A stretch of DNA of 64,000 bases. Source: a virus. This document shows positions 5,297 through 47,530 of the stretch, one piece after another; the first letter of the stretch is position 1; every line of letters starts with the position of its first letter. The position numbers and the translations under genes were made by a program. The stretch covers positions 1-64,000 of IMG/VR virus record IMGVR_UViG_3300028822_000274; one strand, written 5' to 3'. The notes under the pieces are model-generated. The model searched no databases. It was not told the origin of the DNA and saw nothing but the letters and a program-made list of their open reading frames with translations.

Positions 5297-5439
5297 TGCG
5301 CTGCGACGCGTATATCGAGGACATCCTCGACACCGATGAGGGTTATATGCCTCCAAACAGGCAAATTTACCCCGAAAGCCAAATCTCAGGTCCGATTCGT
5401 GTGGTCTGCATGAGGGAGATGCCAAATGGTATCGAGTAA
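5296..5439 (+). CDS. Hypothetical small acidic protein (47 aa)
   Basis: It starts at ATG 5296 by TGATG overlap with the preceding basic peptide and overlaps the start of the nuclease gene at 5426. It is acidic at the N-terminus (YIEDILDTDEGY). The continuous overlaps support a real, coupled gene, but no function can be assigned. Confidence 0.5.
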   Translation: MRCDAYIEDILDTDEGYMPPNRQIYPESQISGPIRVVCMREMPNGIE

Positions 5440-6301
5440 TTCTTGGTGGAAGGGAAAGAAGGCGTCTGAGATCAGCCTGGAACTTTACGCGGCAGTAAAG
5501 GCGGCGTTTCCCTCCCCTCAATGGATTGTCCTGGAGGAGATCTCTATCCCAGGTTCAAATGGGTCTCGCAGGGCTGACATCGTTGCTCTGTCTATTTGGG
5601 GACCCACGAGAGTCGTGGTTTGTGAGATCAAGGCTTCGAGAGCTGATTTTCTGAACGAGATTCGGGACCCAAGCAAACGTGAGCGTGGCGTCTCTTTTGG
5701 GACCGAGTTTGTTTTTGTCGTCCCTCACAACATGGTGAGGGTAGATGAGGTCCCTGAAGGCTGTGGTTTGTACGAGGTGCAGCGGAACCGAAGACTGAAG
5801 CGGACAAAATCTGGGACGCAGAAGAAGAACGTCGGTTGGACGCAAGCCGTGTTTCATAACTTCGTTCGCGCCATCGTGTATCGCAAGGATGAAGCTCACA
5901 GGGCGTTTTATGAGGCCGGGAACCAGGGAACGAAGATTTACAAGAATCTCTTCAAGGCTCTCGGCCAGGAATGGTCTTTGGAAGAGTTGTTGGACCTGAC
6001 GAAGACCCTGTATAGAGGCCTGTTATTCAAGAAGAGCGATGTTGAGCAGGCCTCGATGGATTTCAGGGCGCGTATGAATCAGGATAACGAGGTCATTCGA
6101 TTGCGAGATCTCGAAAGCACAGTCTGTGATTTGTGCGGCTATGGGATACGGACTGGACAGGATTTTGCCAGATGGTTTTCGAAAAGAGGGACTTTAGGTA
6201 ATCCAGATGACAGGAGGGATTTTTACGAGATAGAATCTGCCTACAGGGCGCTGAGCAACATTATCAAGAGAAGAAACGAACTTAAAAAAAGACGAAATTA
6301 G
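5426..6301 (+). CDS. MmcB-like PD-(D/E)XK nuclease
   Basis: 291 aa, AGGGAG 7 bases before ATG 5426. The core reads Asp51 (RRADIVAL), then Glu67-x-Lys69 (VVVCEIKASRADF), the D...ExK arrangement of PD-(D/E)XK nucleases. The SRADF segment right after ExK is typical of MmcB-like DNA repair proteins. Residues 1-110 form the nuclease. The C-terminal ~180 residues are helical with one CxxC (CDLC) and no second pair. DNA cleavage or repair is inferred; the target is unknown. Confidence 0.7.
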   Translation: MVSSNSWWKGKKASEISLELYAAVKAAFPSPQWIVLEEISIPGSNGSRRADIVALSIWGPTRVVVCEIKASRADFLNEIRDPSKRERGVSFGTEFVFVVPHNMVRVDEVPEGCGLYEVQRNRRLKRTKSGTQKKNVGWTQAVFHNFVRAIVYRKDEAHRAFYEAGNQGTKIYKNLFKALGQEWSLEELLDLTKTLYRGLLFKKSDVEQASMDFRARMNQDNEVIRLRDLESTVCDLCGYGIRTGQDFARWFSKRGTLGNPDDRRDFYEIESAYRALSNIIKRRNELKKRRN

Positions 6302-6310
6302 GAGTTTAAA

Positions 6311-6844
6311 ATGTCTGAAAGAATCCCTTGTCCTATTTGTGGTGAAAGCATCATGGCGTCTGCAAAAAAATGTAGATTTTGTAATGAGGACATCGAAAAG
6401 TTTGCGCGAAAACAGGAGGCACTAATAGAGCGCGACATCTTCAAAGGGAAGCTGCCGGTCATCTACGATCTTGGTCAGGTTGCAGTCATTTTGTTGCTGT
6501 CCTTGATTTTCATTGTGCCGGGTCTAATCGCTCTGTTGGTATATTGGATCAAGGCAACGACAACGCATTATCGAGTGACTACCCAACGGATTCTACTGAC
6601 GAGTGGCGTTTTTTCGCCTCGTGCTGACACCATTGAATTGTTTAGGGTCGATGATATTGGTGTCACCCGTCCATTTTTAATGCGTCCATTTGGTTATGGC
6701 TGCATTCATGTTTGGACTTCTGACCGTTCGTCAGCAGCAAAAGTAATTGTCACCAAAGAATATGATAGAATAGTAAATGATTTGCGGGGTCATTTATTTG
6801 CTTCACGAGAACAACGAAACGTCATGACACTATCAAGAGCATAG
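6311..6844 (+). CDS. Zinc-ribbon, PH-domain membrane protein
   Basis: 177 aa. An N-terminal zinc ribbon (Cys7, 10, 21, 24) is followed by a short helix, a hydrophobic segment at about 55-80 and a bacterial PH-like beta domain at about 86-170 (HYRVTTQRILLTSGVFS...DTIELFRVDDI). This combination resembles YdbT/bPH2 membrane proteins. The ribbon and PH domain probably both face the cytoplasm at the inner membrane. Its role in infection is unknown; it could modify the envelope or exclude other phages. Confidence 0.75.
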   Translation: MSERIPCPICGESIMASAKKCRFCNEDIEKFARKQEALIERDIFKGKLPVIYDLGQVAVILLLSLIFIVPGLIALLVYWIKATTTHYRVTTQRILLTSGVFSPRADTIELFRVDDIGVTRPFLMRPFGYGCIHVWTSDRSSAAKVIVTKEYDRIVNDLRGHLFASREQRNVMTLSRA

Positions 6845-8307: not shown

Positions 8308-9930
8308 ATGTCTTCACGACGAACATTGGTTTCGGCTGGACCGATTCCTTCAAAACTGGACTCTGTCAAGTACATCACGAATAGATTCAAGGGCAGAACA
8401 ATAGTGGACATGGCGCACAAGCTTGCCAGCTGGAATAATATTGTTGATTTGGTTGTGTGGAAGCATTCTCCAGTCAAGCAATTCCTGGCATTCAAGTCCA
8501 TGGCTCGTGACGGTTCGATTATTCATGAGGTAGACGATGCCGTCGACTATTACGAAACCATGGAACGTCTTGCCCCAAAATATTCTGCGTTTGTCCTTGG
8601 AGCTGCGGTGGCAAACCTGATGCCGTCATATCCGTATGAAGGCAAGTTTCCATCTCACAGGTACCAGGAAGGCGAAGAGTTTGAGATCCAATTTGAAATA
8701 GCACCAAGAACAATAGACATGATAAAACACGTGAATCCACGTTGTTGCTTGATTGGCTATAAGCTTTACGACGGAACCCACGAAGAGCTTATAAAGGCAG
8801 CAAAAATTACTCTGGTTAACAGTCATGCGAATGCGATTATAGCCAATGATCCTAAAAATCTTATGGTTAAGCACGTCCTGCTTCCAGATGGCGCTACTAT
8901 TACTTTAAATGCAGGCAATAATGTTCAGCCAGCGCTTTTTATAGACGGTCTAATACGTCTTAAACACCATAAATCTGTCAGGGTTGGCTTGGACAGGGAA
9001 AGTATTTTACGGGAAAAGAACGAGCTTCCTATTTTGGTTTGCGAGCATTTCGAGAAATACATAAAGAAAGGCCATCATGGTGCCTGCGCTGTTCGTGGAA
9101 ATGGTTGCCATGTTATGACCTCACGCAATCACGAGGGCATAAGCATTGTTCTCGAAAACAACAAAATGAAGGACTGGGATAACCCGGAAATCTCTTTTGC
9201 AGGACACAAGCCGACAAAGAATGCTCCACTCTTATTTGACGAGCTAGCTAATGATTACGTTTTTGCCGTCCACCACAGACACGTAGAAAATTACGGTCTT
9301 GAGGTGTTCGGACATTCTTGTCCAGGAACAACAGAAGAGATGGAGAGCAAAAGCTCGGGGGATTACTACATAGAAAAGCACGGCACCATAGAGAAGAAAT
9401 ACCTCTACAACACAGACTGGAGCAAGTATTACGAATTGTATCCAGATAAATACTTCAAGACCCATCCATTGATGATGACAATATACGATGAAACCGAAGG
9501 GAAGGGTGTCTTGGACGTTGGGTGTAATACCATGTTCAGGAGTGAGTTTTGGCTCGATCCCAACATACACAGTGATAGGCCTGGACGTGTTACGTATGAA
9601 ACTCTTGGTAAATACGAATACATCATTCTCAACAACTCGATAAATTATCTCACAGAAGAGGAAATAGACCTTCTGATAGCCGCATTACAACCTGGTGGCA
9701 TGATGGTTGCCAATACGTTTGCCGATGCTCCGAAAAGGAAAATAACTGAGAACGAGATTGTGTATTCGACAGATACACATGTGTATCATATTTTGTGGGA
9801 TGGGCAGAGCAGGTACTACCAACACTCCTTTTATAACAGAGGGTTCAATTTCTGGCATTCGAAGAATTTCCTATCGAAGCTGTACAACAATAAGAGGTCT
9901 AGATTATTAACTATTGTGCGACCAAAATAA
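8308..9930 (+). CDS. CoaB-like / aldolase-like / methyltransferase fusion
   Basis: 540 aa, three apparent domains. Residues 5-195 resemble the CoaB (DFP, phosphopantothenate-cysteine ligase) domain: SAGPIPSKLDSVKYITNR near the start, AAVANLMP at 99-106, a KF.. segment, LIGYKL near 148, and ANAIIAND at 174-181. Residues about 238-345 resemble a class II aldolase: GNG-(C)HVMTSRN at 264-274, then KPTKNAPLLFDEL and a VHHRH zinc-type motif at 321-325. Residues 365-540 look like a Rossmann methyltransferase (GVLDVGC at 400-406, LQPGGMMVAN at 460-469). The joint reaction is unknown. CoaB chemistry is NTP-dependent amide bond formation, so making or attaching a small molecule is conceivable. Confidence 0.6.
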   Translation: MSSRRTLVSAGPIPSKLDSVKYITNRFKGRTIVDMAHKLASWNNIVDLVVWKHSPVKQFLAFKSMARDGSIIHEVDDAVDYYETMERLAPKYSAFVLGAAVANLMPSYPYEGKFPSHRYQEGEEFEIQFEIAPRTIDMIKHVNPRCCLIGYKLYDGTHEELIKAAKITLVNSHANAIIANDPKNLMVKHVLLPDGATITLNAGNNVQPALFIDGLIRLKHHKSVRVGLDRESILREKNELPILVCEHFEKYIKKGHHGACAVRGNGCHVMTSRNHEGISIVLENNKMKDWDNPEISFAGHKPTKNAPLLFDELANDYVFAVHHRHVENYGLEVFGHSCPGTTEEMESKSSGDYYIEKHGTIEKKYLYNTDWSKYYELYPDKYFKTHPLMMTIYDETEGKGVLDVGCNTMFRSEFWLDPNIHSDRPGRVTYETLGKYEYIILNNSINYLTEEEIDLLIAALQPGGMMVANTFADAPKRKITENEIVYSTDTHVYHILWDGQSRYYQHSFYNRGFNFWHSKNFLSKLYNNKRSRLLTIVRPK

Positions 9931-16464: not shown

Positions 16465-18099
16465 ATGAAGATAGAAAAAGCAAGAGTTGAAGAAGTACGC
16501 CTCTCTGTGCCTGAAGGATTCAAAACAGCAGCAGAAGCTATAGAGCATTACGGCAGGATTTGCTATCGCTCAGAAGACAAAATCACCGAAACTTCTGCGG
16601 ACAAATTTGTGGATCGCCTGTACAAGAGTGGGCACCACGCCATGCTCGAGTTCTGTGATGCGACCGTAATCTATTCCTGTGATAGGGGTATGTCTCACGA
16701 GCAGGTTCGTCACAGGCTGGCCTCCTTTGCCCAGGAATGTGTTTCAGGTTCGACGAAAGTCCACAAAAAATGGTCTGTGAAGCAACTATACGATAGAAGC
16801 CAAACAGCCATGGGTAGGGAGTACAACAGTAGGCTTTTATTAAGAAGCGTGGACTCTGTTGGGAATATAGTTCAGAACAAGATGAAGGATATATGGCTTG
16901 TGGGTAAACGGCCGGTATTTCGTTTAATGACGAAGCTTGGCTACAGTATAGACGTTACTTCAGAGCATAGGTTCTGCATGAAGGACGGCTCAGAGATAAG
17001 ACTGAGCGAACTGAATGTAGGAGATCGTGTCTTGGTGAACGGGAGACCGGCGGCAATAAAAATTCCACATGAAGACGTTGAGGCCATGTATTTGCAGGAA
17101 GCAATGAGTCCGAGCGAAATAGCTGATACACTGTGCGTTCCTTACAGGAGCGTATTAAATTGCCTGCATAAACAAGGGGTATTTCAAAGGCGTCTTAACG
17201 ACAAAAACAAAGAAAAATATACCAAAAACCACACGAACGATTCTTATGAGAAGATGCGTTGCTCTATAAAAGAGCAGTACAAAAACGGCAGAATGGCGTG
17301 GAATAAAGGTCTGTCAGAAGACGACCCTTCTGTGTTTATCCAGGCGGAATCTCTTCGAAAAAACCATTATGACAATCGTCCTCTAGAGGAAAATTCTAAT
17401 TGGAAAGGGGGTGTGGATTCTGGTGTTGCACGGCGACGCAAGGCTGAGGTGGATGCTTGTGAGCTATGTTCTTTCCAAGGTTTTCTTGAGGTTCACCACA
17501 TAGATAAAAACACGAAAAACAATACGCCAAAGAATCTGGTAAAGGTGTGCAGGAATTGTCATAAAAAACTTCATTTTGGTTGGCATATCGGAATGGTTGC
17601 ACATGAAGATGAGGTAATATCCATAACGCCACTAGGTTTTGAGGATGTGTTTGACATCGAGATGTGCTCCCCATATCACAATTTCGTTGGTAACGGGATT
17701 GTGACCCACAATAGCACGCGATACTGCTCGTACAACAAGTCAAAATTCGATGGGGAAATCACAGTCATCGAGCAACCCTCCATAGCCGCTGCTGAAGGCT
17801 CAAAAGGAGCTGTTGCCAAGGCTACCTATGAACAGGCAGCACTATACGCTGAGGAGGCGTACAAGAAGCTCCTGGAGTGCGGAATAAAGCCCCAGGAGGC
17901 GCGGGCGGTACTACCGATAGGTCTCAGGACACGTATTGCAGTTAAGGCGAATCTGAGGGAGTGGCTTACGATTTTCAGCCTTCGTTGCGATACCCCAGCA
18001 CATCCGATAATCCGCGAATGTTCAAAGGAGGTACTCCGTGTCTTACGAGAGCGAGTCCCGTCAGTCTTTTCGGACCAGGGGGAGAGGTTCATGCTTTGA
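16465..18099 (+). CDS. thyX: ThyX thymidylate synthase with intein
   Basis: Flavin-dependent thymidylate synthase (dUMP to dTMP with methylene-tetrahydrofolate and FAD). The 544-aa precursor contains a 325-aa intein at residues 92-416. After splicing, residues 1-91 and 417-544 join to a 219-aa enzyme, the normal ThyX length, and restore the signature RHRLASFAQESTRY. The C-terminal extein keeps PIGLRTRI and NLREWLTIF, consistent with an active enzyme. It supplies dTMP during phage replication. Confidence 0.9.
   Translation: MKIEKARVEEVRLSVPEGFKTAAEAIEHYGRICYRSEDKITETSADKFVDRLYKSGHHAMLEFCDATVIYSCDRGMSHEQVRHRLASFAQECVSGSTKVHKKWSVKQLYDRSQTAMGREYNSRLLLRSVDSVGNIVQNKMKDIWLVGKRPVFRLMTKLGYSIDVTSEHRFCMKDGSEIRLSELNVGDRVLVNGRPAAIKIPHEDVEAMYLQEAMSPSEIADTLCVPYRSVLNCLHKQGVFQRRLNDKNKEKYTKNHTNDSYEKMRCSIKEQYKNGRMAWNKGLSEDDPSVFIQAESLRKNHYDNRPLEENSNWKGGVDSGVARRRKAEVDACELCSFQGFLEVHHIDKNTKNNTPKNLVKVCRNCHKKLHFGWHIGMVAHEDEVISITPLGFEDVFDIEMCSPYHNFVGNGIVTHNSTRYCSYNKSKFDGEITVIEQPSIAAAEGSKGAVAKATYEQAALYAEEAYKKLLECGIKPQEARAVLPIGLRTRIAVKANLREWLTIFSLRCDTPAHPIIRECSKEVLRVLRERVPSVFSDQGERFML
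16738..17712 (+). mobile_element. Intein with HNH homing endonuclease
   Basis: Residues 92-416 of the ThyX precursor. It begins with Cys92 and ends VTHN with Asn416, followed by Ser417 as the +1 nucleophile. Block B is TSEH at 165-168; block F/G is DIEMCSPYHNFVGNGIVTHN. The insert contains an HTH-like segment (MSPSEIADTLCVPYRSVLN), a NUMOD3-like stretch (GRMAWNKGLS), and an HNH core with Cys332, 335, His344-345, Cys362, 365 and His366. Insertion is inside the catalytic RHR motif, a typical highly conserved intein site. Confidence 0.9.
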
Positions 18100-45900: not shown

Positions 45901-47024
45901 GAACCGATCTAGAATTTTTGAACATAAATTCTGGATCGAATAAAATCACAGTTGTTGCTGATTTAAGTAACGATGAAATAGATATAGATGTAGATGAGTC
46001 TAATGTCGTCCATCAAAATCTTTCTGGGGCAGGGACAAATGATCATTCAGCCATAGACGCTCATATTGGAAACTCTAACATACACTTTACTGAAAGTTCT
46101 ATCGACCACACTAACATATCTAATATTGGGGCGAATACACACGCTCAGATTGATACACATATTGCAGACAGCACCATTCATTTCACTGAAGGGAATATTG
46201 ATCATACTGCTATTCAGAACATAGGGACAAACAGCCACGTTCAGATCGATGCTCATATTGCGAGCACAACGAACCCACACTCTGTTGACAAGACTGATGT
46301 GTCCCTCGGGAACGTCACCAACGATTCTCAGCTGAAAAGGGCGGCAAATGATTTTACAACTTTCACTGAGAAGACTTCACTCGCAGACGATGATGTAATT
46401 CTCATTGAGGACAGCGCTGACACTTACAGCAAAAAGCGGCTGAAAGCTGTAAACCTCCCGAGTGGTTCCGGTGGTGGAGGGCCTTCTACTCCAGGGACAA
46501 CGACTGATAATGCCATTGTTCGATGGGACGGGACAGACGGTTCTGCTATTCAGAACAGCGGTACAACTGTCGATGACAACGACGTCATCACTCTCAATAG
46601 CGATGGTGGTGCAGTCAAGGTTTCGACTCCAGCTAGTGATTTAAATGCAAACGGAATCATAATTTCAGGTACAGTAGACACTAACGCAACTGGTGTCGGA
46701 GCGCTGCTTTTCCTGAATACAGATGGGAACTGGGACGAAGCTCAGGCAAACTCTGCTACTACAGTTGGTCAGCTCGGCTTGGCCATGGAATCTGGTACAG
46801 GGACGAAGAAAATCCTTCTGTATGGTATTTTCAGGAAGGATGCCTGGGGTTGGTCTGTCGGACACCAAAACGGCGCTCTTTACGTGAGCGGGGCGACTGC
46901 CGGAGCCATGACGCAAACCGCCCCTAGCACTGATGGTTACCAGATTCAGAAATGCGGATACGCGATAAGCGCAGATGCGATTATGTTTGCGCCGTCGCCT
47001 GACATCGCGGAGTACGTAGCATGA
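42933..47024 (+). CDS. Long tail fibre protein with beta-helix region
   Basis: 1363 aa. Residues about 75-130 (LGNVTNDAQLKRAAGDINTF...ADLLLVEDSADS) recur near 1120-1175 (LGNVTNDSQLKRAANDF...DDVILIEDSADT), a repeated fibre module. Residues about 150-420 resemble a pectate-lyase-type parallel beta-helix (YNSIKDAVDAAVAGG, a PWRIDVYPGAY rung). Later a HxxN/HIxDSTIHF repeat (about 1045-1120) forms a shaft. Receptor binding by the trimer is inferred. No intramolecular chaperone recognised. Confidence 0.8.
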   Translation: MSVFSNLRGVLSTAFSLGKTDKIEIENSSGDFVLKTAGSERARLNSSGVTVTGDSDLSAGSVYKINGTQLDGGDVGLGNVTNDAQLKRAAGDINTFTEKGTPVAADLLLVEDSADSNNKKKVQIDNLPASGSKPIVQTLKVGQAGSDVDYNSIKDAVDAAVAGGASGSAPWRIDVYPGAYVEDPMTVPLGVNIISTDQRVDTVFVVASDPTNDLFTLAGGYICGLNMSGVTSTGKALVTASTAGSLNVLHGVSFNNCYYGIHVSGGATMICTNVSCLIASAGVSVDTGIRVTGTSSFLLMSGCFFSVPSAVLPAYASNPIETAVCIEDAADAFILGGVFQVSPKNSDANAILVDSAATCFVSSGVFAGCGNAIHIGSSGSNTSVVSQGSSFKDNSLNTLIDSSTGTIFCNETVDLVQDSLVSGAKKLGVAQIRDDERVDLLGDVQYKFVETDRRAGLGVFFNEMGASGVSSGGIVSINSGLDVDVSAGTGWVRRRSTYNDLASVVWNDVIALTLTASNTNYVYYNETSGAVTASVTPPGYSDSILLATVVTDGSGVRYIHQTRNYVDSPAEQLRDYLLATRKIALNSGLAVDAGTTSLKFDVTVGSYYLGLDLISFAGAADATFSYFYGTNGANEVSSQTEIDDEYYDNAGTLTLLTAGYFKADTVVLTSDGRISVIYGTEEFATQEEAESAAVANTPTFIEHSAIQLANIVVEDGAGIASFVDIRPQPGAITGGGGAAGVSNHGLLSGLADDDHVQYLLSSGSRAMSGSLDMGGNNITNVANVDGVDVSSHASRHDPGGADSLTTGTPVTTLVDGAAAEGSAASYARSDHQHGIASGVPSSVGTSNSAGSASTVAASDHVHDHGAQTDGTLHAAATTGVNGFMSAADKTKLDNATATPTADRLVIADGFGTVDDWITSGDLTEAVSSVLTINNGSGAVLGSGTSIQIAQAGAGQSGYLTSVDWNTFNDKIDGGVNVGALGVGVFKQKNGTDLEFLNINSGSNKITVVADLSNDEIDIDVDESNVVHQNLSGAGTNDHSAIDAHIGNSNIHFTESSIDHTNISNIGANTHAQIDTHIADSTIHFTEGNIDHTAIQNIGTNSHVQIDAHIASTTNPHSVDKTDVSLGNVTNDSQLKRAANDFTTFTEKTSLADDDVILIEDSADTYSKKRLKAVNLPSGSGGGGPSTPGTTTDNAIVRWDGTDGSAIQNSGTTVDDNDVITLNSDGGAVKVSTPASDLNANGIIISGTVDTNATGVGALLFLNTDGNWDEAQANSATTVGQLGLAMESGTGTKKILLYGIFRKDAWGWSVGHQNGALYVSGATAGAMTQTAPSTDGYQIQKCGYAISADAIMFAPSPDIAEYVA

Positions 47025-47530
47025 CGACTGGATGTATTTGGGGATATTGGGATAGATGGCACGAAGGCATGACTGCAAGCATGACTGAGGCCATGAGAGT
47101 ATGTGATGGCGATGACCTTCATGTTGTTGTTATTGAAGGATCCACTGAAATAAATGAAAAGGTAGAAGTAAAAAGAAGTTACCTTGTGCACAGAAGAAAC
47201 TATGTGAAAGATAAGGTCAAAGACATAGCAAAAGATACAGGGTACAAACCAAAAATAATTTACCATATCTATGAAACTCTAACTGAAGCAATAACAGATT
47301 GTGGCTCTTATCCATTTGATATTTTGTTTGTTGTTGAACATGATAAAAATAATTGTGTGCCATTTAACGCAAATATAGCAGCAGCACAGTTTTCAAAAAC
47401 TTCTTCCGGGCGCAAGGAAGCTAAATTGCATGTTGTTAAATCTGTATTTGAAGAAGGCACTGAAATAACATGCTCTTCAACAAGGTTAAGAAAAAGGGAG
47501 AAGCTAAGAAATAGGGCTAAAAATAAATGA
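47021..47530 (+). CDS. HIGH-type nucleotidyltransferase in fibre cluster
   Basis: 169 aa, ATGA overlap with the long fibre stop. Residues 8-17 (GYWDRWHEGM) reproduce the G-x-(F/W)-D-xx-H-x-G-(H/M) motif, and residues about 152-158 (SSTRLRK) the C-terminal STxxR motif, of cytidylyl/adenylyltransferases of the CoaD / TagD / NadM superfamily. The spacing of strand, helix and LHVVVIEG between them fits. The substrate is unknown. It could make a CDP- or ADP-linked compound. It is unexpected among tail fibre genes. Confidence 0.65.
   Translation: MTTGCIWGYWDRWHEGMTASMTEAMRVCDGDDLHVVVIEGSTEINEKVEVKRSYLVHRRNYVKDKVKDIAKDTGYKPKIIYHIYETLTEAITDCGSYPFDILFVVEHDKNNCVPFNANIAAAQFSKTSSGRKEAKLHVVKSVFEEGTEITCSSTRLRKREKLRNRAKNK

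Follow-up and report, generated by a model that had tools for sequence, protein, structure and literature searches.

Which reaction would a phage entrust to a single protein that joins a CoaB-like ligase, a class II aldolase-like domain and a methyltransferase? This combination was proposed, from the sequence alone, for one open reading frame in the window (the 64,000-nucleotide stretch analyzed here, which belongs to a virus record of 103,713 bases (103.7 kb)), and it was taken to be an undescribed architecture that might conceivably serve a small-molecule or nucleobase modification pathway. We asked whether the three domains are real, whether their catalytic sites are retained, where else they occur together and what they may make.

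Three enzyme-like domains in one reading frame

The frame runs uninterrupted from its ATG at 8308 to its stop at 9928-9930, and encodes 540 amino acids in which three domains were recognized (Table 1). The Pfam DFP family covered residues 2-183, and solved CoaB structures were matched by the CoaB domain both in sequence search and in Foldseek, where the target TM was 0.65-0.77 for most bacterial entries. Foldseek recognized the CoaB fold of residues 1-203 in a predicted model with a mean pLDDT of 80.7. A separate model of the aldolase part (pLDDT 80.9; residues ~225-391) matched L-fuculose-1-phosphate aldolase (FucA) at E=2.3e-5, with a probability of 1.00 and TM values of 0.55/0.46. The aldolase part of the window protein had no Pfam match; Pfam Aldolase_II was matched by 6/16 homologues (best 2.8e-5), and the aldolase-domain profile reached aq_1979 (2irp) at E=4.4e-5 and FucA at 0.0013 when run against the PDB. 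Similarly, the methyltransferase part of the window copy had no Pfam match, and 10/13 homologues of the methyltransferase matched Methyltransf_23/25.

The leave-one-out profiles were built from homologues only, with the window excluded, and run against all window ORFs and 2000 shuffled copies. All three picked out this ORF only, while the best shuffled copies scored 0.09 (CoaB), 0.95 (aldolase) and 0.79 (methyltransferase), none of the 2000 falling below 0.08. Against viral models, a Foldseek search with the whole protein returned only poor-TM matches, to generic methyltransferases and RNA-virus capping proteins. PADLOC matched the window protein to no known defence system; its one weak hit, mad2, fell on a homologous methyltransferase and probably reflects generic methyltransferase similarity.

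Table 1. Features of the fusion protein in the window
Feature	Position	Strand	Basis
CoaB-aldolase-methyltransferase fusion protein, three domains	8308..9930	+	540 aa; ORF, model and leave-one-out profiles
CoaB/DFP-like domain, residues 1-203	8308..8916	+	Pfam DFP E=8.7e-18; Foldseek to solved CoaB E=3e-11; leave-one-out profile E=8e-67
K21-YIT-N25: Lys for cysteine-orienting Arg (Msm R207), Asn (Msm N211) kept	8368..8382	+	Alignments; role from PMC7794376
A100-V-A-N103: Asn for cation-binding Asp (Msm D281)	8605..8616	+	Alignments; role from PMC7794376
KFPSH loop, residues 113-117, where the bacterial K-X-K-K triphosphate loop would sit	8644..8658	+	Invariant 16/16; alignment to solved CoaB
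Class II aldolase-like domain, residues ~215-368	8950..9411	+	Profile, model, Foldseek; leave-one-out profile E=3.4e-12
N305-A-P: Asn at the position of FucA Glu73	9220..9228	+	Invariant 18/18; alignment
H323-x-H325, predicted metal ligands 1 and 2	9274..9282	+	Invariant 18/18; aligned with HxH of FucA and aq_1979
H358-G359, predicted metal ligand 3 (IEKHG)	9379..9384	+	Invariant 18/18; aligned with HHG of FucA
Shortened class I SAM methyltransferase-like domain, residues 369-540	9412..9927	+	Leave-one-out profile E=8.4e-16 and alignment; VLDVGCN, LDP, NNSINYL, NTF

Elsewhere in the window, two genes upstream of the fusion encode an MmcB-like DNA repair protein (5426-6301, +; E=3.2e-5) and a bacterial PH-domain protein (6311-6844, +; E=9.5e-14), and a ThyX gene (16465-18099, +; Pfam Thy1 E=1.4e-37) is split by an intein that carries an HNH endonuclease domain (Intein_splicing 6.7e-13). 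The sequence-only reading had also suggested a nucleotidyltransferase at 47021-47530 (+) as a partner of the fusion. That ORF sits 37 kb away, starts where a 1363-aa fibre-like ORF ends and matched no Pfam family, and a search of the whole 103.7 kb record for CTP_transf_like gave no match; the suggested link is left unsupported.

An altered ligase site and a retained metal triad

In Mycobacterium smegmatis CoaB, R207 serves the second half-reaction, the attack by cysteine, which it orients, while D281 binds a cation and a K-X-K-K loop binds the triphosphate (PMC7794376). The AAVAN and IIAND motifs noted earlier are both present in the window protein, as is the Asn of the ITN motif; other positions of the site have changed. 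Lys stands in place of the Arg and Asn in place of the Asp, both invariant in 16 members, KFPSH replaces K-X-K-K, and F(K/R)G is found where solved CoaB has SSG. The GFK motif remains in the family (the window copy reads GYK), and the CoaB positions N25, K113 and K152 are invariant in 16/16. Curated equivalog models scored 52 (TIGR02114), 45 (TIGR00521) and 52 bits (PRK06732), against cut-offs of 217, 220 and 265. Given that the cation-binding Asp and the cysteine-orienting Arg are replaced, NTP-dependent ligation may be changed or lost. Judging by these residues, the present reaction probably differs from that of CoaB, and cysteine is an unlikely acceptor. At one Patescibacteria locus (L036) the CoaB site is canonical (Arg, SSG, AAAVSD), although the aldolase and methyltransferase beside it are those of the other loci, which indicates that the cassette derives from a true ligase; we regard this ligase origin of the CoaB-like domain as firm.

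For the aldolase-like domain, a GN...PxxxAP...HxH layout had been proposed, which is better read as AVR / KPTKNAP / HxH, with IEKHG supplying the third His. Each of 18 members keeps the complete set of metal His together with the K...NA segment and GT. At the position of Glu73, the catalytic residue of FucA, Asn stands in 18/18. TIGR03328 (MtnB) was matched by just 5/16 members with a best E of only 0.0033, and we do not place the family in MtnB.

Methyltransferase motif I and the acidic motif II are clear in the homologues, and the NY/NTF motif is conserved. The window copy reads DVGCN at motif I and LDP at the acidic loop, but the stretch between the two is shortened and no Pfam family matched, so that SAM binding by this domain is no more than likely.

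Linkage and distribution of the cassette

All three activities occurred together, on one strand, in 21/21 loci with full context; a 22nd, L015 (Clostridia), runs off the end of its contig and stands outside the 21. At 19 of these loci a CoaB-aldolase gene accompanies a separate methyltransferase gene, the two usually overlapping or abutting, often with an overlap of 1-4 bases; at one (L088), three ORFs lie between them. The other two, the window and an Oscillospiraceae contig (L016/L042), encode a single fused protein. Comparison of all neighbourhoods against one another revealed no further gene common outside close phage lineages, save isolated pairs.

The homologues, which were brought in by alignment queries (single-protein scans of viral contigs, P0001 and P0004, gave nothing new), came from LR745208.1 (a 485 kb phage), IMG/VR phage contigs and bacterial contigs. 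Carriers comprise phage contigs of up to 548 kb, Patescibacteria and Clostridia, and the distribution is patchy: profiles matched 4/380 Patescibacteria genomes, one of them (L037) with a plain CoaB without the aldolase part, and 2/394 genomes from the order to which the Oscillospiraceae carrier belongs, one of them (L039) with CoaB only. In the tree, the window copy groups with L015, L016, L020 and L035 (support 100/100). Reading the flanking sequences, we found the cassette amid housekeeping-looking genes (gyrB, smpB and an argS-like arginyl-tRNA synthetase gene) in the Patescibacteria genomes G004 and G006, and adjoining a cystathionine/methionine-lyase-like gene and other cellular genes in G003. 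By the same kind of reading, the L016 contig (387 kb), perhaps a large mobile element, carries ParM-like and replication-initiator-like ORFs. As no PHROG family covers more than 1/16 members and targeted searches of a library of papers found none on such a cassette or architecture, the earlier impression of novelty has held: the cassette is real and conserved, and apparently undescribed.

Several neighbourhoods deserve separate mention. A Patescibacteria cassette with canonical CoaB residues (L040, 6945-11859) is preceded or followed by an EamA-like transporter and an APH-family kinase, and at its opposite end by a class IV aminotransferase. Beside the cassette, L044 (a Harrisonbacteria genome; 11791-13020) and L078 (a 318 kb phage; from 11903) share a membrane protein whose C-terminal domain is soluble, which suggests transfer between the two. 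In the huge-phage records LR756501 (L003, 2904-4681) and LR756500 (L013), a separate CoaB-like gene without the aldolase part was seen by eye; in L003 it comes after a CoaC-like gene whose C-terminal part resembles a peptidase. On the Priestia plasmid pBMG3 (L012, 4806-8267), a stand-alone CoaB-like gene sits beside KAS III, DHFR and methyltransferase genes, possibly as a small biosynthetic cluster.

A candidate pathway and its relation to known enzymes

Three parts that lie side by side in ~20 very different giant phages and bacteria probably belong to one small biosynthetic pathway, and since they are linked without other conserved partners, a complete short pathway starting from common metabolites is suggested. 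With moderate confidence, we propose that the window protein represents, in fused form, a conserved cassette of three enzymes that is self-contained and produces or remodels a small metabolite, probably a phosphorylated one. That the three domains are obligately linked favours the small-molecule half of the earlier proposal. More tentatively, we suggest that the pathway is exchanged among huge phages, Patescibacteria and Clostridia, and that it yields a methylated phospho-amide, a new metabolite or cofactor with a probable connection to NAD economy in infected cells.

The NAD connection comes from the gene neighbourhoods. In three related phages (G782, G790 and G791) the cassette lies between pncB and nadE, with a gap of 275-681 b to nadE, and in two more (G784 and G785) pncB and nadE occur as a pair 5-6 kb downstream of it. 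With each lineage represented by a single record, the nadE-cassette distances gave a combined chance p of 0.001-0.013, depending on the record chosen; since the records were selected by the cassette and the test was framed after the three cases had been seen, we treat this proximity as a lead only. Moreover, a macro domain gene adjoins the cassette in L063, and a KptA gene lies nearby in L008. Two further candidates suspected by eye, a nicotinamidase close to L032 and a NADAR-like gene close to L063, had no Pfam support and were set aside. What the cassette makes or consumes probably connects, in several phages, to the salvage of NAD (pyridine nucleotide). These same neighbours could argue for a specifically NAD-directed role, in which the cassette repairs, reroutes or decorates a metabolite derived from pyridine nucleotides or ADP-ribose, e.g., as a counter-defence against NAD-depleting immunity. 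However, the clear phage lineages number just two, huge phages hold many such genes, the Patescibacteria copies do not adjoin NAD genes, and nadE, carried by 7/15 phage records, is missing from the other 8, including the window's own, whose 103.7 kb hold no match to nadE or pncB. We consider such a dedicated role unlikely; the 8 records that lack nadE count against the looser NAD tie as well.

Less likely still is that the window copy is partly degenerate, its methyltransferase and perhaps its ligase being inactive, and that it acts as a binding or regulatory protein. Its long branch (2.63 vs a median of 0.54), shortened motif region and missing Pfam methyltransferase match would fit such decay, yet the active-site-like columns of all three domains are retained. 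Hypermodification of DNA nucleobases, the other half of the earlier proposal, appears very unlikely: the phage setting would fit, and a ligase and a methyltransferase could plausibly act in tailoring, but the chromosomal copies in Patescibacteria near housekeeping-looking genes, and the lack of any other conserved neighbour, leave this role unsupported. Least probable of all is canonical CoA biosynthesis by a phage phosphopantothenoylcysteine synthetase whose aldolase domain replaces the CoaC decarboxylase, for despite the clear CoaB homology and a CoaD-like gene that adjoins the cassette in one Patescibacterium, two key positions and the bit scores depart from CoaB, the pathway has no place for a methyltransferase, and CoaC is missing from 13/13 phage records and, as is CoaE, from G003, G004, G006 and G373 (4/5 cassette Patescibacteria genomes for CoaC). 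Across all records, CoaC was found in 3/21 and CoaE in 4/21, with controls positive in 14/14 and 10/14; draft genomes and contigs may be incomplete, which makes an absence in any one record weak evidence, though the pattern is consistent, and on it ordinary CoA synthesis was set aside.

Returning to a self-contained cassette for a small metabolite, 4'-phosphopantothenate, on which CoaB acts, is a phosphorylated hydroxy acid, and the substrates of class II aldolases are phosphorylated sugars and sugar acids. As both kinds of substrate are phosphorylated, a common phosphorylated hydroxy-acid scaffold is the simplest unifying guess. In the scheme that we infer, including its order of steps, substrates and product, the CoaB-like domain would bind an NTP, activate a carboxylate as an acyl-nucleotidylate and couple it to an amine other than cysteine. 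The aldolase-like domain, with its three-His metal, would carry out C-C or C-O chemistry, as a lyase, dehydratase or decarboxylase, on that molecule's phospho-sugar or hydroxy-acid moiety, and methylation by the methyltransferase would follow; being fused or translationally coupled, the enzymes would hold the intermediate within a single complex.

Retention of the whole cassette in carriers so far apart must bring a benefit, yet our searches met with no described pathway that unites its three chemistries. The cassette offers a testable route to a metabolite of huge phages and ultra-small bacteria, and presents a CoaB-type ligase that appears to be re-purposed outside CoA synthesis; the NAD link, if true, would add to how phages manage host NAD.

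Among known enzymes, the methyltransferases of the homologues share with class I SAM methyltransferases (Methyltransf_23/25) the DxCGG/DIGG motif I, the acidic motif II and the NY and NTF strands, and the nearest solved ones are phosphoethanolamine and toxoflavin N-methyltransferases; they nevertheless form a distinct subfamily, with the window and L016 copies shortened after motif I. The aldolase-like domain has the HxH and HG metal triad and the PGT and KxxxxAP segments of the class II aldolase superfamily (PF00596: FucA, aq_1979), with weak similarity to MtnB (methylthioribulose-1-phosphate dehydratase), but lacks ~25 residues between HxH and PGT and has an invariant Arg/Lys instead of the usual phosphate-loop residues. 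The ligase part is nearest to the stand-alone streptococcal type of CoaB (PF04127 DFP; PDB 2gk4), with which it shares the fold, the ITN Asn, the AAVA strand and the GFK and AND motifs, and from which it differs by the four replacements described above and by its linkage to an aldolase and a methyltransferase, not to CoaC. In this it resembles the CoaBC fusion, where CoaB is likewise joined to an enzyme that presumably supplies or uses its substrate; here, however, the partner has a metal lyase fold, in place of the FMN decarboxylase CoaC that most carriers lack.
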